From: Magnetococcales bacterium
Lineage (GTDB): Bacteria > Pseudomonadota > Magnetococcia > Magnetococcales > UBA8363
Length of the DNA: 64,000 nucleotides
Direction of reading: 5' to 3'
Assembly (NCBI GenBank): GCA_015228925.1
Contig: JADGCQ010000003.1
Location: forward strand, 1 to 64,000
Both the position numbers and the translations under genes were made by a program. Shown one piece after another: positions 4,205 to 20,794 of this stretch (position 1 is its first letter; every line of letters begins with the position of its first letter). Below the pieces are notes generated by a model, which saw only the letters and a program-made list of their open reading frames with translations, searched no databases and was not told the DNA's origin.

Positions 4205-5749
4205 ATGCGGGAGATTGTCGAGAAATTTGAGCGGTTGCGTGCCGAAGCCCGGTTGGGGGGCGGTTTGGAGCGGATTGAGGCGCAGCACGCACGCGGTAAA
4301 TTGACGGCACGGGAATGCATTGAAGTTTTGTTGGATGAGGGTTCTTTTGAAGAACTGGACATTTTTGTCCAGCATCGTTGCCATGAATTTGGGATGGAGA
4401 AGAAAAACATTTCCGGCGATGGGGTCGTGACCGGTTATGGTGAGATCAATCGGAGAAAAGTTTTTGTTTTTGCCCAGGATTTTACCGTTCATGGCGGTAC
4501 GTTGTCGGAATCCAATACCCAGAAGATTTGCAAGATTTTGGATTTGGCCATGCGGACGGGGGTTCCGGTCATTGGCTTGAATGATTCGGGTGGTGCCCGT
4601 ATTCAGGAGGGTGTGGCCTCCCTGGCGGGTTATGGGGAGATTTTTCAGCGCAATGTTCTGGCTTCGGGGGTGATTCCGCAACTTTCGGCGATTTTGGGTC
4701 CGTGCGCCGGGGGGTCGGTGTATTCTCCCGCCTTGACCGATTTTATCATGATGGTGGAAGAAAATTCCTACATGTTTGTCACCGGTCCCGATGTCGTGCG
4801 GACGGTGACGCATGAGGAGGAGACGTTTGAATCTTTGGGGGGGGCGCGGGTTCACGCGACGCAATCGGGGGTTGCCCATTTTGCCTTTCCCAATGGGATG
4901 GTCCTTTTGACGCAGTTGCGTCGATTGCTCTCTTTTTTGCCGTCCAACAATCGGGAACAGCCGCCGGTGGTGAAGGTTGGCGATCCCCCAGAGCGGCAGG
5001 AACATTCCCTGGACCATCTGGTCCCCGACGATCCGCTCAAACCGTATGAGATGCGGGAATTGATCGACAAGGTGGTGGATAGCGGCGATTTTATGGAGGT
5101 ACACCGGGGGTTTGCCCGTAATATTCTTGTCGGTTTTGCCCGGATGGATGGGGGGACGGTGGGGATTGTGGCCAATCAACCGATGGTATTGGCGGGTTGT
5201 TTGGATATCGATGCCAGTGTGAAGGCGGCGCGATTTGTCCGGTTTTGTGATTGTTTTAATATTCCGCTGGTGACATTTGTGGATGTACCGGGTTTCATGC
5301 CGGGGAGGGGGCAGGAATCGGGGGGGATTATCCGGCATGGGGCCAAGTTGTTGTATGCCTATGCCGAGAGTACGGTTCCCAAGGTGACGATCATCACCCG
5401 GAAAGGTTATGGGGGGGCGTATGATGTGATGTCATCCAAACATCTTCGGGGGGATTTAAATTTTGCTTGGCCCAATGCGGAAATTGCGGTGATGGGGGCC
5501 AGGGGGGCGGCAGAGATTATTTTTCGTGGTGAAATCAAGAAATCCGACGATCCCGAAGCGATGTTAAAATCGAAAACCGAGGCTTATGCGCAACGGTTTG
5601 CCAATCCGTTCAGTGCGGCGCGGCGCGGTTTTATCGATGACATTATCATGCCCAGTTCCTCGCGTTGGAAGATTATCCGGGGATTGCGGATGTTGAAGGA
5701 TAAGCAGTTGACCAATCCGTGGAAGAAGCACGGCAACATCCCCCTGTAG
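4205..5749 (+). CDS. pccB: Propionyl-CoA carboxylase beta subunit
   Basis: This is the carboxyltransferase subunit of propionyl-CoA carboxylase. It moves the carboxyl group from biotin to propionyl-CoA to form (S)-methylmalonyl-CoA. The 514 residues carry both crotonase-like halves: the N-terminal half with [13 protein letters not shown] near residue 125 and [13 protein letters not shown] near 165, and the C-terminal half with DVPGFMPG near 360 and the [13 protein letters not shown] oxyanion stretch near 400. Acyl-CoA specificity (propionyl rather than acetyl) is inferred from the mutase, MeaB and epimerase neighbours. It follows meaB by 29 bases and precedes pccA by 16, so it is co-transcribed with them. 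Confidence 0.95.
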
Positions 5750-5765
5750 GAGGGGTGGGGACTCC

Positions 5766-7727
5766 ATGAAGAAGATTTTGATAGCCAATCGTGGTGAGAT
5801 TGCTTCCCGCATCATTCGGACGGCCCGGAGGATGGAGATTGGGACGGTGGCGGTGTATTCGGAGGCGGACAAGGATAATTTGTTTGTACGGCAGGCGGAT
5901 GAATCTTACTTTTTGGGACCGGCCCCCAGTGCCCAATCCTATCTGAACGTGGATCGCATTTTGGAGGTTCTTGACCGGAGCAAGGCGGACGCGGTGCATC
6001 CGGGTTATGGATTTTTGTCGGAGAATGCCGAATTTTGCCAAGCTTTGGAGGATCGAGGGATTATTTTCATTGGTCCGGCGGTGGAGTCCATCCGGGCCAT
6101 GGGCGATAAAATTCACTCCAAGCGGGTGGCGGCGCAGGCGGGTGTCCGAACTATTCCGGGATATGATGGCGCGGTTGCGAGCGCGGCGCAGGCGGTGGAG
6201 ATTGCACGCGGCGTGGGTTATCCGGTCATGGTCAAGGCGACGGCGGGGGGGGGTGGCAAGGGGATGCGGGTCGCTTGTGACGATGGCGAGGTGATGGCGG
6301 CGTGGGAAACGTGTACACGCGAGAGCCGCGCTTCGTTTGGCGATGATCGTGTTTTTATCGAGAAATTTATTGAGAACCCGCGTCATATTGAGATTCAGAT
6401 TTTGGGTGATCGGCATGGGCATGTGGTGTGGCTCAATGATCGGGATTGCAGTATTCAGAGACGCAATCAGAAGGTGATTGAGGAGGCCCCGTCGAAGTTT
6501 GTGGATCCCAACATGCGGCGTGCCATGGGGGAACAGGCGGTCAAGTTGGCTGAGGCGGTGGGATATTATTCGGCGGGTACGGTAGAGTTTGTGGTGGGGG
6601 GGGACAAGAGTTTTTATTTTTTGGAGATGAATTCACGGTTGCAGGTGGAACATGCGGTGACGGAGATGGTCACGGGGTTGGATTTGGTGGAGCAGATGAT
6701 CCGGGTTGCGCGGGGGGAGGTGCTGGGGTTTTCGCAGAAGGATGTCAAGATCAAGGGTTGGGCGATGGAGAGTCGCATTTATGCGGAGAATCCCTATCGC
6801 AATTTTATCCCTTCGACGGGGCGTGTGGTTTATTATCGCCCACCACGGGAGGGTCCGCGGGTTCGGGTGGATTCGGGGGTATCTGAGGGGGGTGAGGTAT
6901 CGATGCATTATGATCCGATGATTGCCAAGTTGGTGACATGGGGTCACAATCGTGAGGCGGCGTTGTTTGAGATGGAATATGCGTTGGATGAATTTTTAAT
7001 TTCGGGGGTCGATCATAATATTGACCTTCTCAATAGTATTGTCCGGCATCCCAGGTTTATCGCGGGGGATTTTACGACGGGTTTTATTGAGGAAGTTTTT
7101 CCCGATGGTTTTAAGGGGGCCAAGCCGACGGAGGATGGGACACGGGCGTTTGCGGTTGCGGCGGCGATGATTTTATTGGTGGAATCTTCGTTGTATTTGC
7201 AGGTTCCCGACCTTCAGGATTTGGTGGTGATGGTGGATCATGAGGAGTTCCGTTTGACGGTCGAGCGGAAGAAGGGGAGTCAGTTGGTTGCGTTTGACGG
7301 GGAGGATCCGGTGGTTGTGACGCATGATTATCGGGCGGGGAGTCGTTTGGCCTCGTTGATGATTCATAATCAGCCGGCGACATTTCGGATCCGGCGTTTG
7401 GCGGAGGGATGGTTATTATCTCAGGGTGGGCGGACGGTTACGGCGATAGCGCGGACGCCGAGGCATCATGAGTTATCGCGGCACATGTTACGCAAGAGGC
7501 CTCCCGACACGTCGCGGCAGATTATTTCTCCGATGCCGGGTGTGGTATTGAAGGTATTGGTGGGGATTGGTCAGACGGTGAATTGGGGGCAGACGGTTTG
7601 TATTGTGGAGGCGATGAAGATGGAGAACACCATCCGTTGTGAGCAGGACGGCAAGCGGGTGCGGGCCATATTGGTTCAGGCTGGAGATACGATTGAGGCG
7701 GATGCGGTATTAATTGAATTTGAGTAA
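5766..7727 (+). CDS. pccA: Propionyl-CoA carboxylase alpha subunit
   Basis: The biotin carboxylase subunit fused to its biotin carrier domain. The 653-residue protein has the biotin-carboxylase N domain (about 1-115, starting KKILIANRGEIASRII), the ATP-grasp domain with K-A-T-A-G-G-G-G-K-G-M near 158-168 and E-M-N-S-R-L-Q-V-E-H near 290, and the C-terminal domain to about 445. A linker of about 130 residues that contacts the beta subunit follows. The C-terminal biotinyl domain carries E-A-M-K-M-E-N-T near residue 618, with the biotinylated lysine in the middle. The ribosome site AGGAGGGG lies about 10 bases before the ATG. It is the usual partner of the beta subunit just upstream. Confidence 0.96.
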   Translation: MKKILIANRGEIASRIIRTARRMEIGTVAVYSEADKDNLFVRQADESYFLGPAPSAQSYLNVDRILEVLDRSKADAVHPGYGFLSENAEFCQALEDRGIIFIGPAVESIRAMGDKIHSKRVAAQAGVRTIPGYDGAVASAAQAVEIARGVGYPVMVKATAGGGGKGMRVACDDGEVMAAWETCTRESRASFGDDRVFIEKFIENPRHIEIQILGDRHGHVVWLNDRDCSIQRRNQKVIEEAPSKFVDPNMRRAMGEQAVKLAEAVGYYSAGTVEFVVGGDKSFYFLEMNSRLQVEHAVTEMVTGLDLVEQMIRVARGEVLGFSQKDVKIKGWAMESRIYAENPYRNFIPSTGRVVYYRPPREGPRVRVDSGVSEGGEVSMHYDPMIAKLVTWGHNREAALFEMEYALDEFLISGVDHNIDLLNSIVRHPRFIAGDFTTGFIEEVFPDGFKGAKPTEDGTRAFAVAAAMILLVESSLYLQVPDLQDLVVMVDHEEFRLTVERKKGSQLVAFDGEDPVVVTHDYRAGSRLASLMIHNQPATFRIRRLAEGWLLSQGGRTVTAIARTPRHHELSRHMLRKRPPDTSRQIISPMPGVVLKVLVGIGQTVNWGQTVCIVEAMKMENTIRCEQDGKRVRAILVQAGDTIEADAVLIEFE

Positions 7728-7751
7728 TCCAACCCATAAGGAGAGAGTTCG

Positions 7752-8165
7752 ATGATTGGACGTTTGAATCATGTTGCCATTGTGGTCCCCGATTTGGATG
7801 CGGCGGCGGCGAAGTATCGTGATGATTTGGGAGCCAGGGTGGAGCCGGCGAAGGATTTACCGGAGCATGGTGTTCGTGTGGTGATGGTTCGTTTGGACAA
7901 CACGACGGTTGAGTTATTGCATCCGATGTCGGACAGCAGCCCGATTGCGGGATTTTTGAAGAAGAATCCGGGCGGTGGGATGCATCATGTGTGTTATGAG
8001 GTTCAGGATGTGGTAGCGGCGACGAAGCAGATGATGGACAAGGGTGTGAAGGTATTGAACGAGAAGCCCAAGATTGGTGCCCACGGTAATCCCGTTGTGT
8101 TTTTGCACCCCAAGGATTTTTACGGCGTTCTCACGGAACTGGAGCAGGTACCCGACGCCAAGTAA
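7752..8165 (+). CDS. mce: Methylmalonyl-CoA epimerase
   Basis: This enzyme converts (S)- to (R)-methylmalonyl-CoA, linking the carboxylase to the mutase. The 137-residue protein is a single VOC-fold (glyoxalase-like) domain of the usual size. It shows the first metal-binding His in GRLNHVAIVV (residue 7), a central H-H-V-C-Y-E-V block near residue 77 and a C-terminal V-L-T-E-L-E-Q with the catalytic/metal-binding Glu. AAGGAGAGAG provides a strong ribosome site. It is the last gene of the operon and is followed 24 bases later by a strong terminator. All five steps and the chaperone therefore lie in one transcription unit. Confidence 0.95.
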   Translation: MIGRLNHVAIVVPDLDAAAAKYRDDLGARVEPAKDLPEHGVRVVMVRLDNTTVELLHPMSDSSPIAGFLKKNPGGGMHHVCYEVQDVVAATKQMMDKGVKVLNEKPKIGAHGNPVVFLHPKDFYGVLTELEQVPDAK

Positions 8166-9293: not shown

Positions 9294-9647
9294 TCAACCT
9301 GCCTGATGCCGCCCCAATCCTTCCGCCAGCAGTGTGGCTGCCAGGGTGTTCAGGCTGACCCCCTCCGATTGGGCCTGACGTGCCAAGTCTGCATGGAGGC
9401 TTTTGGGAACACGCATACGCCATTGGCCGCTGAATTTGCCAGCAGAGCGCGGTTCGGGAATGGGACGATTTTGTTCATGAGCGACTTCTAACCAGGAAAG
9501 CATGGCCTCCTTTCCGCTGGCGATGGCCTCTTCGACGGTTTCTCCATCGGAAATGCAACCAGGAAGGTCAGGAAATTCAATCAAATAGCCACCACCTTCA
9601 TCCGTATTGAGGGGCCGGACGCTAAAAGGAAAATCCATCTCAGCCAT
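9294..9647 (-). CDS. hicB: HicB-family antitoxin
   Basis: This is the antitoxin of a type II HicAB pair. It neutralises the HicA mRNA interferase and represses the operon. The 117-residue protein has the N-terminal HicB fold (partially degraded RNase H fold, about 1-60) with the characteristic G-G-Y-L-I-E-F-P-D-L-P-G-C-I-S-D-G and EEAIASGKEAM segments. The C-terminal ribbon-helix-helix DNA-binding domain (about 70-117) has RMRVPKSLHADLARQA followed by a second helix. It overlaps the 3' end of hicA by eight bases, so translation is coupled. Toxin-first order is common for hicAB. Confidence 0.9.
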   Translation of the reverse strand: MAEMDFPFSVRPLNTDEGGGYLIEFPDLPGCISDGETVEEAIASGKEAMLSWLEVAHEQNRPIPEPRSAGKFSGQWRMRVPKSLHADLARQAQSEGVSLNTLAATLLAEGLGRHQAG

Positions 9648-9888
9648 TTTCGTTGTCCTCCAAAATTTCGATCATCGCGACCAGTTTACGAACATAAACC
9701 GGTTTCACTGGTTTGTGTGCCGGAATGCTCAAGGCTTCTGTCAAATGGGGATGAGTCACAATCACATGGCTGCCACGGGGATTTCGAATATCCATACCAT
9801 ACCGTTGGGCAATGGCTTGGATGTCTTCGATCCGCCAATCCCGGGGATTGTTCCGCATTTTTTGGATAATCTTGTCGGCCTTTGCCAT
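9640..9888 (-). CDS. hicA: HicA-family mRNA interferase toxin
   Basis: A small dsRBD-fold endoribonuclease toxin. The 82 residues give the usual HicA size. The expected pattern is visible: an N-terminal helix (KADKIIQKM), then a strand and loop with G-S-H-V-I-V-T-H-P near residue 40 containing the catalytic His, and a C-terminal I-P-A-H-K-P-V-K-P with following helix. I chose the ATG at 9888 because upstream in-frame codons to 9951 add a hydrophobic stretch absent from the family. No clear ribosome site is visible. The pair appears complete and probably functional. Confidence 0.88.
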   Translation of the reverse strand: MAKADKIIQKMRNNPRDWRIEDIQAIAQRYGMDIRNPRGSHVIVTHPHLTEALSIPAHKPVKPVYVRKLVAMIEILEDNENG

Positions 9889-10097
9889 GGCTGAATGATA
9901 CCGTATTTGGAACCACATTTTCAATACCGCAAAAGTATCCTGAAGGATCATCCGTGGTAGTTTTGATCATCGTTTCGGCCAAGTCTCTTTGAACGTGCTG
10001 GAAAAACCGTGATATGTGCAGGGGACAGCATGGGTATTCCTGTGTTATTCTTTTGGCGTTGGAATCGTGTTATTAACCAATGATTTTGGGTGTCGCC

Positions 10098-10919: not shown

Positions 10920-11831
10920 GTGAATAACCTAAAAAAAACTGTCGGTCTCTTCGTTGGTGTTACCACCTTGGATATTCAATATCGGATCGATGGCTTCCCA
11001 TCCCCCAATACAAAACACTATGCCGATGAATGGGGTACCTTCGTCGGGGGGCCGGCAACCAACGCCGCAACCGTTTTTTCTCACCTTGGGGGAACCAGCA
11101 AACTGTATACAGGTGTGGGAAATAATCCCTTCACCGCACGCATCGCCGAAGATTTTCATAACTCCAAAATTCAATGGGAAGATATCTTTCACCAGCAATC
11201 AACGACCCCTCCCATCGCTTCAATCTTTACCAATCGACACAATGGGGATCGTACTATCGTGACCTATTTGCCCGACAAAACCACCGTCGATCCCGGTCTC
11301 CTCAATCTGGAATTTCTTGAAGAAGCCCACATCCTCATGGCCGACGGATTCTTTCTGGATGTGGCGATCCCCCTCGCACACAAAGCCAGAGAAAAAAATA
11401 TCCCCGTCGTGTTCGATGGGGGCAGTTGGAAGCCTGGTCTGGAAAACCTGATCCGACTGACCGATATCGCCATCGTATCCGAACGATTTTTATCCCCAAA
11501 TTCGGCGGTAAACCAAGATGTCATCGCGTCGTTGCATGATTGGGGATGCACCAAAGTGGCCGTGACCCGGGGAGAAAAACCGATCATCGTCTCCGAGGGG
11601 AATGGGCGGTTTGAACTGGCCGTGGAACCCATCCATGCCGTGGATACGTTGGCGGCGGGAGATTTCTTCCATGGTGCATTCTGTTATGATTATCTTAAAA
11701 CAGACGATTTCGTTGCATCGCTCAAACAGGCCGCCCATATTGCGGGACTCTCCTGCCAATCCTTTGGGACACGAGGGTGGTTGCAGAAACTTGCTCATCT
11801 GGAAAAGTCAGGAAGTGATGGCGGCCAGTAG
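10920..11831 (+). CDS. PfkB-family sugar or nucleoside kinase
   Basis: A ribokinase-fold kinase that phosphorylates a small hydroxylated substrate with ATP. The 303-residue protein shows the N-terminal PfkB pattern (F-V-G-G-P-A-T-N-A-A near residue 41, where the sugar-binding Gly-Gly lies), a central FDGGSWKPG segment and the C-terminal signature D-T-L-A-A-G-D-F-F-H-G-A-F near residue 245 with the catalytic Asp. The substrate cannot be told from sequence. It starts at GTG without a strong ribosome site. It converges with the ATPase-like gene on the other strand and the two coding regions overlap by 24 bases. It is not obviously part of the PqqD/ATP-grasp set. Confidence 0.8.
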   Translation: MNNLKKTVGLFVGVTTLDIQYRIDGFPSPNTKHYADEWGTFVGGPATNAATVFSHLGGTSKLYTGVGNNPFTARIAEDFHNSKIQWEDIFHQQSTTPPIASIFTNRHNGDRTIVTYLPDKTTVDPGLLNLEFLEEAHILMADGFFLDVAIPLAHKAREKNIPVVFDGGSWKPGLENLIRLTDIAIVSERFLSPNSAVNQDVIASLHDWGCTKVAVTRGEKPIIVSEGNGRFELAVEPIHAVDTLAAGDFFHGAFCYDYLKTDDFVASLKQAAHIAGLSCQSFGTRGWLQKLAHLEKSGSDGGQ

Positions 11832-12752
11832 GCGTTGGCCCATCTCCCGGATACATCCACTTCTCCAAACCAACGTGTACTCCTTGGCTTTCACGATCCC
11901 TTGCCAATATAGCTTTTGCAGCAAAGAATCCCCGACCCAGGCCAGGGTAATCTCCCCCAGATCCTCTTGCGTAAGCAGGTCAGACAAACGTTGATGATCG
12001 GCTGGGTTGGACAAAACATGCGACCAAACGCGGGCCATGAGCGTTTGATCACGCAGCAATAATTCATGAAATAAAATATCCTGGTCTTGCCCCCAAGCGT
12101 GCAGGCACTGCATCGATAACCATCCATGCCCTCCGGTCACTTCCAGAATCGAATCGCTGACCGGGGGTGGCAAGGAGAGGGATTGATGACTGGCCCGCTC
12201 CTGCAATTCCATCGAGGAAAAACCCGGTAGTTCACAGACCGTGGCACTGTTGAGCAGAGAAGATTCACCATCCGCATGGGCCAGATGGTATAACCGTTCG
12301 CCACCGCAGAATACCACCCGGAACGGATCATAGATGGCGGTGGCACGATGCAGCAGGGCGGCCAGATCATACCGCAAGGATTCAGAAATGGTCTCAATGC
12401 CCATAACCAGGAAAAAGGCTTGACCCTGCTTGTCGGCCAAAAAATCCAATAACCCCTGTTCAAAATCGGACCGGGAATCAATCTTCCGGGTGATGCCAAG
12501 CTGCTGGGCCAGCGATGGGAAAAAACGGTCGTCCGCATCATCCCGACTGGCGGCTGGGGTGAGCAGCCAAGTATGACCTTCGGGAAAACGGGGTTGTACG
12601 CGCTCCAGCAAAACCCGAATGACCGTATCCGGGTCTCGATCCGCTTGATGCAGAATCAACAGCATCTTGGCAAGCCAAAGATATTCCTCCACGTCGTCAA
12701 GGAACGTCCGTTCGTTGCCACAAGGAGACCGCTCGGAAATTTTATGTGTCAT
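11808..12752 (-). CDS. AAA/STAND ATPase-like protein lacking a P-loop
   Basis: A 314-residue soluble protein whose general layout resembles STAND or AAA_35-type ATPases. A central block QAFFLVMGIETISESLRYDL occupies the place of a Walker B strand and following helix (near residue 120). A later AVVFCGG-like strand, a GGHGWLSMQCL helix and a C-terminal winged-helix-like stretch (LLQKLYWQGIVKAKEYTLVW) complete the pattern. No GxxxxGK[ST] P-loop is present and the Walker B acidic pair is not conserved, so ATP hydrolysis is unlikely. It follows the urea-transporter/M23 fusion by 121 bases on the same strand. Its function is unknown; a regulatory or scaffold role for the neighbouring set is possible. 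Confidence 0.5.
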   Translation of the reverse strand: MTHKISERSPCGNERTFLDDVEEYLWLAKMLLILHQADRDPDTVIRVLLERVQPRFPEGHTWLLTPAASRDDADDRFFPSLAQQLGITRKIDSRSDFEQGLLDFLADKQGQAFFLVMGIETISESLRYDLAALLHRATAIYDPFRVVFCGGERLYHLAHADGESSLLNSATVCELPGFSSMELQERASHQSLSLPPPVSDSILEVTGGHGWLSMQCLHAWGQDQDILFHELLLRDQTLMARVWSHVLSNPADHQRLSDLLTQEDLGEITLAWVGDSLLQKLYWQGIVKAKEYTLVWRSGCIREMGQRLLAAITS

Positions 12753-12873: not shown

Positions 12874-15033
12874 TCAGGTTGTTTCGCCCACCCCCGTTTC
12901 CCAGCCGCTGATGCCGTGATCCGCTTGCATTCCATGGCGAACCAGCTCGCCTTGAAGGGTTCGCTTGGCGGTATGCAGGCGGAAACGGGTCCACCCCAGG
13001 CTTTCGGAAAGTTCGGCACTTCCATGGCATGACCAGACGATGTGACCGCCCCAAGTGATCACGCGATGATGAACATCTTGGACCCAACACAGACGCATCG
13101 GTTGCCATTGGCGGGTATAACGGCTTTCACCCTTCAGGATGCCTGGAAAACACCAATGGACGATGCGCAACCACCAGGGGGCCGGTAACCAATGGATGGG
13201 AATGGTATCCCTCCAGGAGATCGCCTCTTCACACAGCGGCGTTAAAGCGGTGGTCAACAGGAGGGCATCCAGGGATGGATCGGCCCCCCCCTGGCGTCCA
13301 TGGAGGGCGATGAGGGTATCGGTTTGAACAAAGGCGATTTTGGCGTTTTTGTCGGAAACCAGCCATAGAGTTCCCGCCAGGTCAATATCCACTTTCACGG
13401 TGAGCTGGGCCGGGAGATCCTGCATGGCATAGGTGAATGTCCGTCCGACATCCCGCCGTAGGGATAGGGCCAGGAGGGGATTGGGGCTGGGGTGTTGCAG
13501 GCTTTCTTGTTCCTGGGGAATATGGTCCAGCATCAGATGGTTTTCTCCCCCCTGCACAACGATGACATTGGCCAGGTGAAAGGGGCGGGTAGGATTGCCC
13601 AACCATGGCCCTTGTTGCACATGCAGATGAATGTGGGGTTGGGGTGAACGGCCCGAATTACCGCAACGGGCCAGGATTTGTCCTACGACGACAAAGGCGT
13701 TGACGCCAATGGTGAGGCTACCTTGTTGTATGTGGGACAGCAGGACATGATGGCCATCGGTGAGGGCGATGAGCAAAAAATTACCCCAACAATGCTCGGA
13801 ATCGATCTGGCCGGGGGGATTGTCGGGGAGGTCGTCGCGGCAGGCACTGACAGTGCCGGTGACCGGGGAACAAATGGCCGCACCAAAGCAATGATAATCG
13901 GTCAGTTGGCGTCCGTCACCGTGATGGGCCGAACCGCCCTGTATTTTGTGAAAATCCAGCCCGTGACGCCATAGCCCCTGGTGGGTATGGGGTCCATCCC
14001 ACCCTTGATACACCTGCCAAGTGCCCAAAAAAGGGGGTCTAAGGCCCACACTCCCCTCGGAAACCCCACGGGCCTCCGCCATAGCCATGACTTCGGCAAC
14101 CGTTTCCGGGATTTGGGGGGGGGAAATCCAATAGCGGCCCCAGGTTTCTCCCGCCCATGGTCCCAGGGCGGTCATCAACAACCAGGTGGTTGTGATAAAG
14201 GCCAGCGATAGGGGGGGGAGACCCAGGTAATAAAAAATATTATAGGTACCGAGAGAGACAAATCCGACGACCGCTGCGCCAACGATGGTTACCAGAAAGG
14301 TGCGTCCAACGGGGCGGGCAAAAACTCCCCCTGCCATCAGGGCGGTCAACATGGCGGCGGTCCCCGCGAGCGACAAGGGGATGGTGTAGGGCAACACCCC
14401 CAGCATCCGTAATTCCCCGGTGACGACGATGAATGCCAGGATGATCATCAAAAACAGGCGTCGGGAGGAGAGCAGTATGGCCAAGCCAATCAACACCCCG
14501 CCACTGGGCGACGGGGAAAAATAGATCTGCCCCATGGAAATCAACCAAGCAAGGATGGGGCTGGCAACCCATTGATAGAGAAAAAGGTCAACGGGGTTGG
14601 GGAGGTGGGGCACGGCTCCAGGGAGGACCAAGGCACGTCCAACGGCATAAAGCCCCACGCCAATGATGAACAAGGGCGATGAAAGGATGGGCAAGCCCCA
14701 GGGTAATGCGACGGTGGCATAAATCAAACGGCTTACCAAAGTTGCCAATAATCCCGCCAGGAGAGTCAAGGTGATGGTCGCGGGGGTGGGGGCAAAAAAT
14801 GTCCCCACCATCAAACCCAACAAAACCCCATTGACCACATCCAGGTCTGCCACCTGGTTGGGCAAGGCCAAAAGCCGACGACAGCTCAAGCTTGCCGCCC
14901 CTCCCAGCAGACCCATGAGTCCGACGGGGGGATTGAGCAAGGTGGCCGCAACCAAAAGCCAGTGGGCCTTACGGGATTTAAAATATAAAAATGAGCCGTA
15001 AGCACCCAGCAAGGTGTGGAAAAAAGGCCACAA
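12874..15033 (-). CDS. Urea-transporter/M23 peptidase fusion protein
   Basis: A 719-residue two-part protein. Residues 1-300 form about ten hydrophobic segments matching the urea-transporter (UT) fold; the half-repeat signature DLDVVNGVLLGLMVG and a second, related half near residue 180-260 are visible. After a short linker, residues 335-490 form an M23 (lysostaphin-type) zinc metallopeptidase domain. It has H351 in GPHTHQG, D360 in HGLDF, the APV-like CSPVTGTV turn and the H467-I-H469 motif in PHIHLHV, so all zinc and catalytic positions are present. About 230 further residues of unknown fold follow. I chose the TTG at 15033, two bases past the decarboxylase stop and preceded by GGAAG. A GTG at 15117 would overlap the decarboxylase by 82 bases. 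The peptidase part probably faces the periplasm. Confidence 0.8.
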   Translation of the reverse strand: MWPFFHTLLGAYGSFLYFKSRKAHWLLVAATLLNPPVGLMGLLGGAASLSCRRLLALPNQVADLDVVNGVLLGLMVGTFFAPTPATITLTLLAGLLATLVSRLIYATVALPWGLPILSSPLFIIGVGLYAVGRALVLPGAVPHLPNPVDLFLYQWVASPILAWLISMGQIYFSPSPSGGVLIGLAILLSSRRLFLMIILAFIVVTGELRMLGVLPYTIPLSLAGTAAMLTALMAGGVFARPVGRTFLVTIVGAAVVGFVSLGTYNIFYYLGLPPLSLAFITTTWLLMTALGPWAGETWGRYWISPPQIPETVAEVMAMAEARGVSEGSVGLRPPFLGTWQVYQGWDGPHTHQGLWRHGLDFHKIQGGSAHHGDGRQLTDYHCFGAAICSPVTGTVSACRDDLPDNPPGQIDSEHCWGNFLLIALTDGHHVLLSHIQQGSLTIGVNAFVVVGQILARCGNSGRSPQPHIHLHVQQGPWLGNPTRPFHLANVIVVQGGENHLMLDHIPQEQESLQHPSPNPLLALSLRRDVGRTFTYAMQDLPAQLTVKVDIDLAGTLWLVSDKNAKIAFVQTDTLIALHGRQGGADPSLDALLLTTALTPLCEEAISWRDTIPIHWLPAPWWLRIVHWCFPGILKGESRYTRQWQPMRLCWVQDVHHRVITWGGHIVWSCHGSAELSESLGWTRFRLHTAKRTLQGELVRHGMQADHGISGWETGVGETT

Positions 15034-15035
15034 CT

Positions 15036-16445
15036 CTAGTCTTCCATGGGTTGGGGGAGGGGGAGCCAGGAACCGGGATTGGGAGTCAGGCGCGCAGGGA
15101 TCCGTTCGGGTTCGCACAGGGTCGATAAGGTTTCGCCCTGGCGGATGATTTCATGGGTGCCGTTGGGTGAGAGGAGTATAATGGCGGGACGCAGTTCGAT
15201 GAACTGGAGCCATTGGGTGTTGTTGTAGGCCCCGACCGGGGAAAAAACCAGCCGATCTCCTACTTTCAAGGGGGGGAGACTCACCAGTTGGCGCATACAG
15301 TCGATATTCATGCACAATGGGCCGTAGAGAACCGTTTCTTCGGGAATACCCCCATTGGGTTGAACCAACCGGACCGGATGGTGATACCATAGAGCCGTCA
15401 GCATCAGGTTGATTCCCCCATCCAAAATGACCCCACGCTTGCCATCGACCAACCGTTTGGTCCCGACCACGGTGGCGACCAACGATTGAGCATCGTCGAT
15501 CACGGCGCGTCCGCTTTCGATGATCAAGACTGGCGGCGGTCCAGGACGATCCGATAACCCTTTTTTCAGGGCCTTTCCCACCGTCTGGGCAAATTCTTCA
15601 ATCTCTGGGACCGCCTGTTCGGGGGGGGCGTAGACCCCTTGGAGGGCGTTGCGCGATGGAAAACCACCGCCGATGTCCAGATAGGTGATGCGGGTGTTAC
15701 CATCTTTTTCCATCTCTTGCATAAAATCGGTCATGAGGCGGATCTGTTCCCCATAGGCGCGGGGATCGAGGATGAACGTCCCCAAATGGCTGTGCAAGCC
15801 GTTGAGGGTCAGGTGTGGGCTACAGCGGATGCGGAGGGCCGCTTCGTGGGCTTGACCATTTTCCAGGTTAAAACCAAACCGGCTCCAGGGTTCGGTGTAG
15901 CCGGTATTGAAATTCAAACGCAAGGCGACGGGTACCACACGGTTTTGCTCTTTGGCGATGGCCTCGATAAGGCTGAGTTCATCCAGATGATCACAATGGA
16001 TATGGGCACCTTCGGCGATGGCCCGTTCCAAAATTGGACGTGGTTTATAAGGGCCGTTGAACAAAATACGATTGCCGGGTACACCCAAAAGGCGGGCTTT
16101 TTCGTACTCCGGTTTGGAAACGACCTCGGCCCAGGAGCCTTCCTGGTGGAGAATGCGGCATACGGCACTGAGGGTATTGGTTTTATAGGACCAGCCATGG
16201 ATCACGCTGGGGTGATGGCGTTCAAAGGCTTGGCGAATCGCCCGCACATTGTGGCGCAGCCGCTGTTCCGAGGTGATAAAAAGTGGCGATCCGTAGAGAT
16301 TAACGAGGTCATCGATGGGAAGGCCATCAATCTCGGAGCGGGATGAGTCGCTGCGGCGATGACCAAATTTGTTGATGGCCCCCAGATGCAGGGGTTGAAT
16401 CATGGGGGGTTCCCAGATGAGTGTCAAAGGTGACGGTTGATTCAT
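15036..16445 (-). CDS. PLP-dependent decarboxylase, alanine racemase fold (DAP/ornithine type)
   Basis: A fold-type III PLP enzyme of the diaminopimelate/ornithine/carboxynorspermidine decarboxylase group, 469 residues. The PLP-binding lysine is K88 in SYKTN. Further hallmarks are H-S-H-L-G near residue 215, the phosphate-binding D-I-G-G-G-F-P near 260, E-S-G-R near 320, and the second-subunit G-P-L-C-x-x-x-D near 385 that supplies the catalytic Cys and Asp. The substrate-specificity helix does not match a standard LysA or SpeC/NspC that I can name. Its company (PqqD-like protein, ATP-grasp ligase) points to a specialised product rather than lysine synthesis. It sits 30 bases after the ATP-grasp gene in the same operon. 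Confidence 0.82.
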   Translation of the reverse strand: MNQPSPLTLIWEPPMIQPLHLGAINKFGHRRSDSSRSEIDGLPIDDLVNLYGSPLFITSEQRLRHNVRAIRQAFERHHPSVIHGWSYKTNTLSAVCRILHQEGSWAEVVSKPEYEKARLLGVPGNRILFNGPYKPRPILERAIAEGAHIHCDHLDELSLIEAIAKEQNRVVPVALRLNFNTGYTEPWSRFGFNLENGQAHEAALRIRCSPHLTLNGLHSHLGTFILDPRAYGEQIRLMTDFMQEMEKDGNTRITYLDIGGGFPSRNALQGVYAPPEQAVPEIEEFAQTVGKALKKGLSDRPGPPPVLIIESGRAVIDDAQSLVATVVGTKRLVDGKRGVILDGGINLMLTALWYHHPVRLVQPNGGIPEETVLYGPLCMNIDCMRQLVSLPPLKVGDRLVFSPVGAYNNTQWLQFIELRPAIILLSPNGTHEIIRQGETLSTLCEPERIPARLTPNPGSWLPLPQPMED

Positions 16446-16475: not shown

Positions 16476-17549
16476 TCAATGGGTGCCGGTGGTGGCGATG
16501 GCCGCCAGTTGGTCGAGACTGACGATGACATCCTGGGCATGACGAATAAACAGGGTGCCGGTCACGGGTGCGGCCAACCCAGGGCAAGCCTCCTGGGCCA
16601 TCAGGTGCATCAGGATGGCGGGTAGGTTGCGTCCCACGGCATGGCTCAAGTAAACCCACGAGGGGAAACGGGGGTTGATCTCCACCAGATAAAGTTTGCC
16701 ATCTTCACCTTTGAGGGCTTCAACCTCCAAAGGACCGTGCCAGGATAAATGGGTGGCCAGCGTTTGTGCCATGGCCAAAAGATCATGATCTTCGATGCTC
16801 ACCCCGGCCCAAGCCTTCCCTTTGTCGGTGATCGCCCGTTTGCGCATCATCACCGCCCCCAAAAGGGTGCTGTCTGCATCACACACAGCGGTCAGGTTGA
16901 TTTCATGGCCGGGGATAAACCGTTGTACCAGCAGGGGATAACCCCACTGTTGGGCGATGCGCCAGCAGGCGGCTTTGGCCTCGGCGGGATGGTGAACCAC
17001 CTGGGCATCATAGAACAGCCCTTTGACCACCAGGGGATAGTGCCAACCCGACTCATGGCATTCTTCAAAAAAACGGAGATCGTTGATGGTACGGGTTTCC
17101 GGGGTATCCACACCCGTTGCATGGCACAGGGCGGGAAGGCGATCTTTACCCCGTTTGGCAAGGCTGTGCCGACTGGGGAGCAATGTGGTGATTTCCAGTT
17201 GGGACAAGGTGGCTGATAAACAGAGAAAATTGATCAATTCCGAGTCCAGACAGGGGATGATGGCGTCCATGTGGTCTCTCGCCTGTATTTCTTGCAAACG
17301 CTGTCTGAGCGATTCTTCCCCCGTGGAGGGGTAGGGGAGGAGATAGGCGGTATCGCACGATGAATCATGGTAGATCCCCGCATCCAGGCTGTCATAGCCC
17401 AGGCCGATCAAACGCCCGTGGAATTCGGGATGTTCGCGCAAGCAGCGGGCTACCGCCATGCCAGGACCGGGATTATCCGGGCGGGCGTTCATTCCGGTAA
17501 TGGCAATGGACCAAGTTCGCCAATCGTTTCTTGGGTGGCTGGTATTCAT
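16476..17549 (-). CDS. ATP-grasp carboxylate-amine ligase
   Basis: A 357-residue ATP-grasp enzyme. It activates a carboxylate as acyl phosphate and joins it to an amine or thiol. The preATP-grasp Rossmann-like domain (about 1-115) opens WSIAITGMNARPDNPGPGMAVA. The ATP-binding block PLVVKGLFYDAQ lies near residue 170, LVQRFIPGHEINLTAV near 205 and the metal-binding LYLVEINPRFPSW near 285, so the active site looks intact. The closest general style is the CarB/PylC-like stand-alone ligases. Its ATG overlaps the stop of the PqqD-like gene (ATGA), implying coupled expression. The substrate is unknown; a peptide or protein-bound substrate presented by the PqqD-like partner is an inference. Confidence 0.85.
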   Translation of the reverse strand: MNTSHPRNDWRTWSIAITGMNARPDNPGPGMAVARCLREHPEFHGRLIGLGYDSLDAGIYHDSSCDTAYLLPYPSTGEESLRQRLQEIQARDHMDAIIPCLDSELINFLCLSATLSQLEITTLLPSRHSLAKRGKDRLPALCHATGVDTPETRTINDLRFFEECHESGWHYPLVVKGLFYDAQVVHHPAEAKAACWRIAQQWGYPLLVQRFIPGHEINLTAVCDADSTLLGAVMMRKRAITDKGKAWAGVSIEDHDLLAMAQTLATHLSWHGPLEVEALKGEDGKLYLVEINPRFPSWVYLSHAVGRNLPAILMHLMAQEACPGLAAPVTGTLFIRHAQDVIVSLDQLAAIATTGTH

Positions 17550-17958: not shown

Positions 17959-18002
17959 GATCACGGGGGTCCAGGGGATCATTTCCCCGAACCCCCGTGA
18001 TC
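17959..18002. terminator. Long intergenic hairpin
   Basis: A near-perfect inverted repeat: GATCACGGGGGT..GGGG pairs with CCCC..ACCCCCGTGATC around an ATCATTT loop, followed by ATTTTCCCC. It lies between the TPR gene and the PqqD-like gene, both on the minus strand. It could end the barrel-TPR transcript. Its core resembles the GGGGGTCC..ATCAT element at 3050-3080, so it may also be a repeat-family member. Confidence 0.55.
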
Positions 18003-18074
18003 ATTTTCCCCATCATGTTATGTCGGCAAACTTTATTTTTCCAATGTATCCGGTTGTCAAAGGCACCTGAGCAA

Positions 18075-18758
18075 TTATTGTTTCAGAAAGGCCGTTGCCT
18101 CAAGATGGCCCGGAATTCGGTTCAAAACCTTCACATAAGCATCCCGGGCAAGGTTTTTATGGTTCAGCCACAGGTGCGCACGCGCCATGTAGACCAGGGC
18201 ATCGGTATCGGTTGGATAATGGCTAGCCAGAGTTGTGGCATAACCCAGCAAGTTTTCCCATTGTTTTTGGCCTTCGGTGGCGACCATCATCCGTTGAAGG
18301 GCGGTTTGGTTAAGACGGGAAAGTTCCAGCACCGATCCGGCAAAAGCTGCCGTTTCACGATAGCGTTGTTGCGCCAGGAGCGGCAACGTGATCCCCAGGA
18401 GGGCGTCGATGGAGTGGCCGTTGGTACGGAGTGCCAACCGATAATAATGGATGGATACATTGTGCTGGCCTTGGAGATAGTTCAACCACCCCAGGCGGAG
18501 CATGACCAACTCCTGGTCACCATTTCGGGTTTCATGCAGGGGGAGAATGACCTCGGCGGCTTCGACGTACCGACCTGCCGTTTCCAGGGCATAGGACCGC
18601 TTGAACAGTTCGGCGGCGGTTGCGGGAACTTGGCTGGAAACCTTCGGCAGCGTAGAATTCTTGTCGCTTACGGTGTTTGTGGCACTTTGGGCGTCTGTGG
18701 TATGCCATGCGACAAACCAACCCATGATGGCTGCAAGAACAATAACAGATCGGGTCAT
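18075..18758 (-). CDS. Periplasmic TPR protein
   Basis: A 227-residue exported protein with a signal peptide (MTRSVIVLAAIMGWFVAW, cut near the SATN that follows) and about four tetratricopeptide repeats from residue 50 onward. Typical TPR positions can be read, such as LGWLNYLQGQHNVSIHYYRLAL, AALLGI-like turns and ALVYMARAHLWLNHKNLARDAY. The frame is open further upstream, but the ATG at 18758 has GGTG before it and gives a proper signal peptide. It starts four bases after the stop of the beta-barrel gene, so the two are co-transcribed. The pairing suggests a periplasmic adaptor for the outer-membrane barrel. Confidence 0.72.
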   Translation of the reverse strand: MTRSVIVLAAIMGWFVAWHTTDAQSATNTVSDKNSTLPKVSSQVPATAAELFKRSYALETAGRYVEAAEVILPLHETRNGDQELVMLRLGWLNYLQGQHNVSIHYYRLALRTNGHSIDALLGITLPLLAQQRYRETAAFAGSVLELSRLNQTALQRMMVATEGQKQWENLLGYATTLASHYPTDTDALVYMARAHLWLNHKNLARDAYVKVLNRIPGHLEATAFLKQ

Positions 18759-18762
18759 GATA

Positions 18763-19686
18763 TCACCAGTTGTAGGAATAGGAAAGATAGAGTGAACGGC
18801 TGTCGTATTTGTCGCTGATTGTTTTGTTTTCGTAGGCTTCGTAGCCGCCAAGGAGGAGGATGTTGGCATGGGTTCCCACGCGCCATTCCAGACCCATGGA
18901 GGCGGATCCTTTCTGGGTATCGGCGAGATTATAAACCGAGGCACCATCCAAATCGACATTCAGAATTTTTTCGCCCACCATCCCGTTGGCCTTCAAGCTG
19001 TTGAGACGCAGAAAGTTATCGGGATCGAACCAGTGGCTCCATTTGATGTCGAGCGCGACGGTATCATCCATTGTCTGACCTGCGACGGGATTGACGACAT
19101 CGATCAGGGTGGGCCTCAGGGAGACCCAGTCCGATTTGTCGTTGAAGGCCATGCCGACGGCGGGTGAGAATTGTCGTGCCGACAAGTCGCTGTAGTAGTC
19201 GCTATAAGCACCCGCCACTTCCAGAGACCATGTTTGATCAAACGGGGAGAAGGAGACGACGGGGGCGGCCACTTTGACATCATCGGAATTGCGGGTTGAA
19301 TCATCGTTGTTGATGAGGTGTCCATCCACCCGCAGACCAAGACGACCGCCCCAATGGTCGGGTGTTAGGTTTGCCCGGAGGCTGGCAAAAAAGGCGTCTT
19401 GTGAGATATCCTGGGTGGGTGCGACGAACGTGACTTCGGCATGATTATAGCCCAGGGTGAAGCCATAACGCTCGTAATAATCGGAACTGAAGAAGATCCC
19501 TTCGCCGTGAAACCGTTCGCGCAGACTGGAACCGGAATAATCCCCGACCACCCCTTGCAAGGAGACGCCGGGATACCACGGGCCTTCCAGAGGGGGGCCG
19601 TGCGGTGCTTCCATCGCAACGGCGTCCACGGCGAGCAGGCTCAAAGCAGTACTCAATGCGCAGGGGAGAATGGACAATTGGCGCAC
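18763..19686 (-). CDS. Outer-membrane beta-barrel protein
   Basis: A 307-residue exported protein. From a GTG start with GGGAG seven bases upstream, it gives a clean signal peptide (MRQLSILPCALSTALSLLAV, then DAVA). The mature part alternates aromatic and polar residues in the manner of transmembrane beta strands (YGFTLGYNHAEVTF, LGLRVDGHLI, WSLEVAGAYSDYY). It ends in a C-terminal aromatic residue (LYLSYSYNW), the signal for BAM-mediated insertion. About 12-14 strands seem likely. An in-frame ATG at 19818 would add 44 residues that fit a signal peptide poorly. The specific family is not recognised. Confidence 0.72.
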   Translation of the reverse strand: MRQLSILPCALSTALSLLAVDAVAMEAPHGPPLEGPWYPGVSLQGVVGDYSGSSLRERFHGEGIFFSSDYYERYGFTLGYNHAEVTFVAPTQDISQDAFFASLRANLTPDHWGGRLGLRVDGHLINNDDSTRNSDDVKVAAPVVSFSPFDQTWSLEVAGAYSDYYSDLSARQFSPAVGMAFNDKSDWVSLRPTLIDVVNPVAGQTMDDTVALDIKWSHWFDPDNFLRLNSLKANGMVGEKILNVDLDGASVYNLADTQKGSASMGLEWRVGTHANILLLGGYEAYENKTISDKYDSRSLYLSYSYNW

Positions 19687-19894
19687 AACAAGGCTCCCGT
19701 CAAATAGGTTTTTGAACACGGTTTTGATCACAAAAAGCGCAACAAGCAACCGGACACCGCCTTGCTCCAGGAATTTCCCGACTGGCCCAATGCGTGAACG
19801 GTGAATCTTATTTCTCAAAAGGTAACCAAGCGTGGCCTTATCTCACATTCTTATGAATATGTCAAGAAATTTATTGCGATAATTGTCGATGGTG

Positions 19895-20794
19895 CTATGC
19901 GTTGAGAAACACATCATCCCATGAGTGGGCGTCCAAGATGCGATCAGTCCATGTTTCGATCTCGCCCAAAGTTGCGGCGGCCAGTTTGGATTCCACTTCG
20001 GCGGTGAGCGGTGATCCAAATTTTTTTTGAAGTAAACGCCGGAGGATGGCAACCTCACCTTCCCGACGCCCCTTTTCTTCCCCCTCTTCCAGGGCTAATT
20101 CAATGGCACCACGGGCGTCGGTAATGGCCATCCCAGCTTTGTCATAATACCTCAGCTCCGCACGGCTCATGTTGGCCACACGCGCTTTTTCAAAAGCATG
20201 TTGAATGGGGGCATCGTGAAGATTGGAAGGGATTTCATCCAGGATGCCGGCACTTTTGATAAAATAGATCCATTTGTCCAACATCGATGTCAGGGTATCG
20301 ATCGGCTTGTCAAATTTAGATAGTTCGACAAAATAATAGACAATTTCCTTGAGTAAGGACCGGCCACCCGATGTTTCTACCGTCTGATGGTGAGAGACAT
20401 AGCCCGGAATATCATCGAACAGAGTAAAATCGGTAATGGTGACGGCAATTACCTGATTCAGTTTGGGATAGTCCTCGGCACTGGCGATCTGGTTGACGTA
20501 GGCTTTGGCGGCGTTGTACTGAATCCGTTTGAGAAACGCCCGAACTTTGCGAATCTGCATTTCCACAAGATAGGTGACACCGCGATAATCGACGCAGTGA
20601 ACATCCAATACCGACTCTTTCATCCCTTCAATACGTGGAGCCAGCGTGGGATCAAGCAACGTGATTTCCCTGATTCGCCGGTCGCCCTCCAGGTTCATGA
20701 GGCTTTCCAAAAAACTGATCAAGATATCCTTGGCGTCTTCGCTGCCAAAGATTTTTTTGAAGGCAAAATCAATCCTGGGATCAATAAATCTCAT
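19895..20794 (-). CDS. Rpn-family PD-(D/E)XK nuclease (transposase-like)
   Basis: A 299-residue member of the Rpn/YhgA-like group, which act as DNA endonucleases linked to recA-independent recombination and were earlier annotated as putative transposases. It begins MRFIDPRIDFAFKKIFGSE, the family hallmark. The degenerate PD-(D/E)XK core is visible as D64 (VLDVHC) and E78-x-Q80 (YLVEMQ). The C-terminal half contains an acidic/basic helix (ALEEGEEKGRREGE) and a short helical tail DAHSWDDVFLNA. The same type of tail occurs in the second, diverged copy at 60303-61265. It is a single gene, not flanked by inverted repeats. Confidence 0.82.
   Translation of the reverse strand: MRFIDPRIDFAFKKIFGSEDAKDILISFLESLMNLEGDRRIREITLLDPTLAPRIEGMKESVLDVHCVDYRGVTYLVEMQIRKVRAFLKRIQYNAAKAYVNQIASAEDYPKLNQVIAVTITDFTLFDDIPGYVSHHQTVETSGGRSLLKEIVYYFVELSKFDKPIDTLTSMLDKWIYFIKSAGILDEIPSNLHDAPIQHAFEKARVANMSRAELRYYDKAGMAITDARGAIELALEEGEEKGRREGEVAILRRLLQKKFGSPLTAEVESKLAAATLGEIETWTDRILDAHSWDDVFLNA

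Follow-up and report, generated by a model that had tools for sequence, protein, structure and literature searches.

A urea-transporter-fold domain fused to an M23 peptidase, and the decarboxylase and ligase genes encoded beside it

What purpose might be served by placing a urea-channel fold and a peptidase of the cell-wall-cutting kind in a single polypeptide? The window considered here, a 64-kb stretch of DNA from a Magnetococcales bacterium, encodes such a protein. The original prediction offered two uses for the join, namely local peptidoglycan cleavage coupled to transport or a channel repurposed for a small product of the neighboring enzymes. The fusion, its domains, and the adjacent genes are as follows.

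12874..15033 (stop codon included), minus strand: UT-M23-half-barrel fusion, 719 amino acids, TTG start at 15033
14071..15033, minus strand: UT channel domain, fusion residues 1-321, from Pfam PF03253 and a VIA match to 3k3f
13519..14049, minus strand: M23 peptidase domain, fusion residues 329-505 (H351, D360, H434, H467, H469), from a fold match with Z 13.9 and residues invariant in 86/86 fusions
12877..13518, minus strand: C-terminal LolA/lipovitellin-like half-barrel domain, fusion residues 506-719, predicted from a model with weak to moderate fold matches
15036..16445, minus strand: fold-III PLP decarboxylase (FslC/DAP-decarboxylase-like), Pfam Orn_Arg_deC_N 101 bits, 2-bp gap to the fusion
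16476..17549, minus strand: ATP-grasp ligase (carbamoyl-phosphate-synthase-like), Pfam ATPgrasp_Ter 42 bits, 2pn1 60 bits
17546..17821, minus strand: PqqD-like small protein, Pfam PqqD 38.9 bits, overlapping the start of the ATP-grasp gene
18075..18758, minus strand: exported TPR protein, with TPR Pfam matches, a start chosen within ORF 18075-18959, and a signal peptide recognized by eye
18763..19818, minus strand: predicted outer-membrane beta-barrel with C-terminus -YSYNW, no Pfam match, start within the ORF uncertain

The proposed TTG start fits the gene order, lying 2 bases past the stop codon of the upstream decarboxylase and yielding a chain of 719 residues. That both domains occupy one chain is borne out by the open reading frame, the Pfam UT match, the fold matches of the AlphaFold model, and recurrence in other genomes. 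The model of the full-length protein, built from 22 aligned rows, has a pLDDT of 89.1 and a pTM of 0.79, and its geometry gives a UT fold for the N-terminal region (Z 35.8) and an M23 fold thereafter (Z 13.9). The full architecture recurs at 25-68% identity across independent genomes, including that of a pure culture, Mariprofundus sp. EBB-1 (L075), and is therefore neither a chance event nor a local assembly join; the closely related counterpart in Magnetococcales bacterium DCbin2 (L052) is 98% identical. The belief that a few such proteins are annotated was an underestimate: in a single scan of genome contigs, tblastn confirmed 157 relatives. Hosts among the best 80 of these 157, the most similar relatives and the ones used for all neighborhood counts, include Magnetococcales, Mariprofundaceae, many Gammaproteobacteria, Accumulibacter, Sideroxydans, Polaromonas, and Geothrix, together with a Desulfobulbaceae bin, a Nitrospirae bin, Obscuribacterales/Melainabacteria, and Eremiobacterota. 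The UT-M23 architecture is thus widespread in bacteria and found in several phyla. Searches of open-access PubMed Central texts found no paper on the fusion or its gene cluster. Residue conservation was assessed in an alignment of 102 rows, reduced to 86 by dropping 16 near-copies that shared a 60-residue stretch. A related M23 domain lies behind several N-terminal membrane helices, without a UT domain, in another locus (L048:7338-8342).

The N-terminal part of the fusion retains the architecture of a urea transporter. The Pfam UT model (PF03253) matches at 97.3 bits against a cut-off of 25, and modeled residues 1-318, which have the UT/SLC14 fold with its two inverted halves, superimpose on dvUT (3k3f) over 301 residues (VIA Z 35.8, rmsd 2.4). 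The equivalog model TIGR03441 (urea_trans_yut) scores 60.9 bits, below its curated cut-off of 274.6. Comparison with seven stand-alone UTs of the same phylum, used as controls, places the urea filter of the fusion at S14, S118, Q169, and S276. All seven controls carry Q, T, Q/E, and T at these positions, whereas the corresponding counts in the fusions are 0/86, 0/86, 6/86, and 6/86, with mostly Ser or Ala instead; the protein in the window, which retains Q169 at the third position, is one of the six exceptions there and lacks the complete polar set. The Asn of the first UT signature is retained in 81 of 86 fusions and the final Phe in 80, and in the branch that holds the fusion of the window the second signature is changed as well (T225, A226). 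The fusion therefore resembles dvUT and human UT-B in its whole two-half fold and, for the most part, in its hydrophobic slot residues and signature Asn, but differs from them in its replaced Q/T/Q/T filter and its added soluble M23 and half-barrel domains. The fold is thus that of a UT, but the urea filter has been lost.

The peptidase domain, by comparison, seems fully equipped for catalysis. Its Pfam M23 match (27.2 bits) falls slightly below the cut-off of 28.7, and the AlphaFold model supplies the fold assignment, with a VIA Z of 13.9 to 7qrl, 13.9-13.8 to LytM/lysostaphin domains, and 13.8 for residues 330-494 against lysostaphin 4lxc. The H(x)nD and HxH motifs, with an upstream catalytic His, are present in every fusion, and H351, D360, H434, H467, and H469 are invariant in 86/86 dereplicated sequences. 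According to a review of the family (PMC9662197), the zinc ligands of M23 enzymes are two His and one Asp, and the first His of HxH, with another His about 30 residues upstream, is catalytic or water-activating. By those roles, H351, D360, and H469 are the zinc ligands and H434 and H467 the catalytic residues. Of the four zinc positions originally proposed, three thus stand and H467 is reassigned as the first, catalytic His of HxH; the list also lacked the other catalytic His, H434, about 30 residues before that motif. Loss of zinc ligands in homologs would have told against an active enzyme, and none of the 86 has lost H351, D360, or H469. The description of the site as active-looking is upheld by all five residues, and catalytic activity is predicted. 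The domain shares its fold and these five residues with LytM, lysostaphin, DipM, and Csd2; it differs from them in being channel-fused and predicted cytosolic, and in having 8 residues between the first His and the Asp.

The remaining C-terminal part, previously described simply as extra, is a separate domain whose 214 residues, modeled alone, fold at a pLDDT of 94.1. Among solved folds, it comes closest to vitellogenin/lipovitellin and to YmcC/LolA-type half-barrels (VIA Z from 10.2 to ~5, with LolA/YmcC kin at about 5-9). Foldseek returned no match under E 0.001 (best 1.7e-3), and the relationship is therefore described as a likeness to LolA/lipovitellin half-barrels and not as membership; the resemblance of the predicted structure to LolA-type domains is weak. 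A PDB sequence search with this domain found no near relative and one match at E 0.08.

The side of the membrane on which the peptidase resides bears directly on its function. Loops were assigned to one side or the other from the order of the helices and the topology of known UTs, in which the first helix of each half is re-entrant. On the side of both termini, which is also that of the M23 domain, the loops contain 0.097 Lys plus Arg per residue, versus 0.017 on the opposite side. This positive-inside bias toward the M23 side holds in 84 of 86 fusions, with two ties and no reversals, and agrees with the bias in all seven stand-alone UTs. In Cys content, the M23 (1.90%) and C-terminal (1.50%) domains resemble the cytosolic enzymes (1.27% and 1.47%) and differ from the barrel (0.05%) and TPR (0.45%) proteins. 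In human UT-B, an intracellular pocket is formed by Q68, L116, L121, Y122, N165, V175, L364, and V367 (PMC10541013). By the aligned ranges of the fold match, Q68 of this pocket corresponds approximately to S14 of the fusion and L364-V367 lie just ahead of the M23 domain, so the C-terminal end of the UT domain should be inside. Taken together, charge bias, homology to UT-B, and Cys content predict that the M23 domain is probably on the cytoplasmic side, and local cutting of peptidoglycan, as first suggested, loses its support.

The reading that survives best among the alternatives retains a wall-directed enzyme: the UT domain would be an unusual membrane anchor, the M23 domain a periplasmic peptidoglycan endopeptidase, and the neighboring enzymes modifiers or recyclers of wall peptides. 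To our knowledge, the M23 enzymes described so far hydrolyze peptidoglycan, and half-barrels of the LolA kind mostly reside in the periplasm; both soluble domains therefore look exported by kind, which counts against cytosolic placement. The intact active site, the M23 fold, and the exported TPR and barrel genes that often adjoin the fusion agree with this assignment. It is nevertheless unlikely, given that all three topological indicators place the peptidase inside and that the Pfam matches include no wall-binding domain.

The genes surrounding the fusion offer further clues to its role. On the minus strand, the PqqD-like, ATP-grasp, decarboxylase, and fusion genes follow one another in that order at spacings that suggest a single transcription unit, with the TPR and barrel genes (18075-19818) just upstream; the barrel was called by eye from its C-terminus and signal-like N-terminus. 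Homologs of the TPR protein adjoin the fusion in other loci. The best solved relative of the decarboxylase is N-citrylornithine decarboxylase (7kh2), and BtrK is another relative in the PDB. In place of the 'CES' of DAP decarboxylase, the enzyme has the 'GPxCM' motif of FslC, and it scores 219.4 bits against the FslC model NF041039, below the cut-off of 500. Its FslC likeness at the CM motif hints at an amide-linked substrate. A gene on the other side of the fusion (11808-12752) was left out of the system, having a match in only 1 of the best 80 loci, and PADLOC gave no defense-system match for the four operon proteins.

Profiles seeded with the proteins of the window were run on the best 80 of the 157 loci, many of whose contigs end early. 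Detection was highest for the decarboxylase (72 loci), followed by the ATP-grasp (67), PqqD-like (63), and TPR (54) proteins and the barrel (51); the association of the PqqD-like gene with the fusion, which had been singled out for checking, is thus common. ATP-grasp and/or fold-III decarboxylase genes occur in 72 of the 80 loci and a fold-I set in 7, one contig starts inside the fusion gene, and the fold-III and fold-I decarboxylase sets were found together in 0/80. Where 3300 or more upstream bases are available (65 loci), the PqqD-like, ATP-grasp, and fold-III decarboxylase genes occur together in 59; the other six carry an unrelated fold-I Orn/Lys/Arg decarboxylase in their place, four of them also with another ATP-grasp protein. 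This second neighborhood type comprises seven loci (L118-L122, L126, L129), the six together with L122, with the fold-I enzyme and TPR and barrel genes; five also encode a PRK06524-like ATP-grasp protein and a C45 acyltransferase, and two of the seven contigs end in or near the decarboxylase. A quick tree unites the fusions of this type with relatives from a single Magnetococcales genus in one clade (8 rows, SH-aLRT 100), and the exchange of decarboxylase and ligase was therefore probably a single event. In 299 genomes of the phylum, counted regardless of kinship after three with M23-only matches were dropped (G070, G138, G174), the fusion (any part) occurs in 36, the ATP-grasp gene in 36, and both in 32. 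In three Magnetococcales genomes (G057, G161, G121; loci L132, L133, L134), the PqqD-like, ATP-grasp, and decarboxylase genes are present but the fusion is missing; the fusion is thus dispensable for that part of the system.

A cytosolic M23 enzyme might instead act on peptidoglycan precursors or recycled muropeptides, with the decarboxylase working on a diaminopimelate-type residue. Stem peptides are present in the cytosol, M23 enzymes prefer such peptides, and the decarboxylase is related to DAP decarboxylase. This possibility is improbable, as the decarboxylase is nearer to FslC and lacks the CES motif, and the remodeled channel and the fold-I Orn/Lys/Arg decarboxylase variant are left unexplained. 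A RiPP pathway, in which the PqqD-like protein would bind a precursor, the ATP-grasp and decarboxylase enzymes modify it, and the M23 domain remove its leader, draws on the Pfam PqqD match and the presence of that gene in most of the best 80 loci. No conserved small ORF turned up in the stretches searched beside the cluster, however: among 686 small ORFs around the clusters, no family occurs in more than three loci. In addition, PqqD matches are lacking in the fold-I variant, and in two scanned proteins the PqqD-like domain is C-terminal, behind a TetR-like DNA-binding HTH (L117:5567-6370, L063:5655-6482), as would fit a regulator; a RiPP role seems correspondingly improbable. ORFs of this TetR-like/PqqD kind, ~260-280 amino acids long, recur in Mariprofundaceae. 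An ordinary urea or amide channel joined to a peptidase by accident would account for the full UT fold and is very unlikely, considering that the filter is changed family-wide, the M23 site is invariant in 86/86, and the architecture is maintained across phyla.

The repurposing of the channel for a small product of the neighboring enzymes, the second use originally proposed, gains support from the conservation of those neighbors and from the loss of the filter in fusions but not in stand-alone UTs. The fusion is more likely to finish and pass out a small product than to cut the cell wall, and our preferred reading, which falls somewhat short of an even chance, is that it matures and releases, at the membrane, the product of a small biosynthetic pathway. 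The ligase and decarboxylase would yield an amide or a peptide containing a decarboxylated basic amino acid, for example an N-acyl-diamine. At the inner mouth of the channel, the cytoplasmic M23 domain would cleave a peptide or amide bond within this product or, alternatively, free it from a peptide or protein, perhaps assisted by the half-barrel domain, and the remodeled channel would pass it across the inner membrane. On the outer side, the exported TPR protein and an outer-membrane barrel would contribute in many Proteobacteria. A changed channel, an intact peptidase at its inner mouth, conserved ligase and decarboxylase genes, and outer proteins fit such a path of making, trimming, and release. 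Against release stands the fact that a UT channel is without an energy source, and the two decarboxylase types may indicate different products, which counts against one shared product.

A broader proposal, possible but on balance doubtful, is that a cytoplasmic M23 domain at the inner mouth of a non-urea UT-fold channel serves as a shared hub for the production and release of diamine-type amides across phyla, and that the decarboxylase and ligase were on one occasion replaced together by unrelated enzymes with the same chemistry. The non-homologous swap beside a constant channel-peptidase would narrow the product to one containing a decarboxylated basic amino acid. If correct, UT channels would gain a non-urea cargo and M23 enzymes a cytosolic role, and an undescribed conserved pathway would exist in iron oxidizers, Magnetococcales, methanotrophs, Accumulibacter, and relatives.

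The cluster bears some resemblance to known systems. Its FslC-like decarboxylase resembles that of the fsl (rhizoferrin) operon, which has a similar layout of ligase, decarboxylase, and inner- and outer-membrane proteins but with an NIS synthetase in place of the ATP-grasp protein and an MFS exporter in place of the UT-M23 fusion; the cluster described here gives no siderophore evidence. In butirosin biosynthesis (BtrI/BtrJ/BtrK), an ATP-grasp ligase likewise works with a fold-III decarboxylase on a bound amino acid, but the present cluster has a PqqD-like protein where that system has an acyl carrier, and adds a membrane peptidase-channel. The sfz stalk cluster of Zetaproteobacteria (PMC8250860) belongs to the same organism group and consists of different genes; the main text mentions no PqqD, urea, ATP-grasp, or decarboxylase.

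Several minor features were also observed. A long GC-rich inverted repeat, present once in the window, lies between the TPR and PqqD-like genes (17960-18003), and a PD-(D/E)XK transposase-family gene (PF12784) is present at 19895-20794. Elsewhere in the window are adjacent small genes that by eye resemble a HicB/HicA toxin-antitoxin pair (9294-9951) and genes for an acyl-CoA carboxylase carboxyltransferase and a biotin carboxylase, followed by a glyoxalase/epimerase-like gene, the last assigned by eye (4205-8165). In two other loci (L054:12214-14262, L057:5109-7094), a second protein encoded ~1.1 kb after the fusion begins with a UT half and continues, within a single chain, into TPR repeats and further membrane helices. 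The Q and T of the urea filter appear by eye to be kept in its UT half, and the arrangement is consistent with TPR repeats on the outer side.
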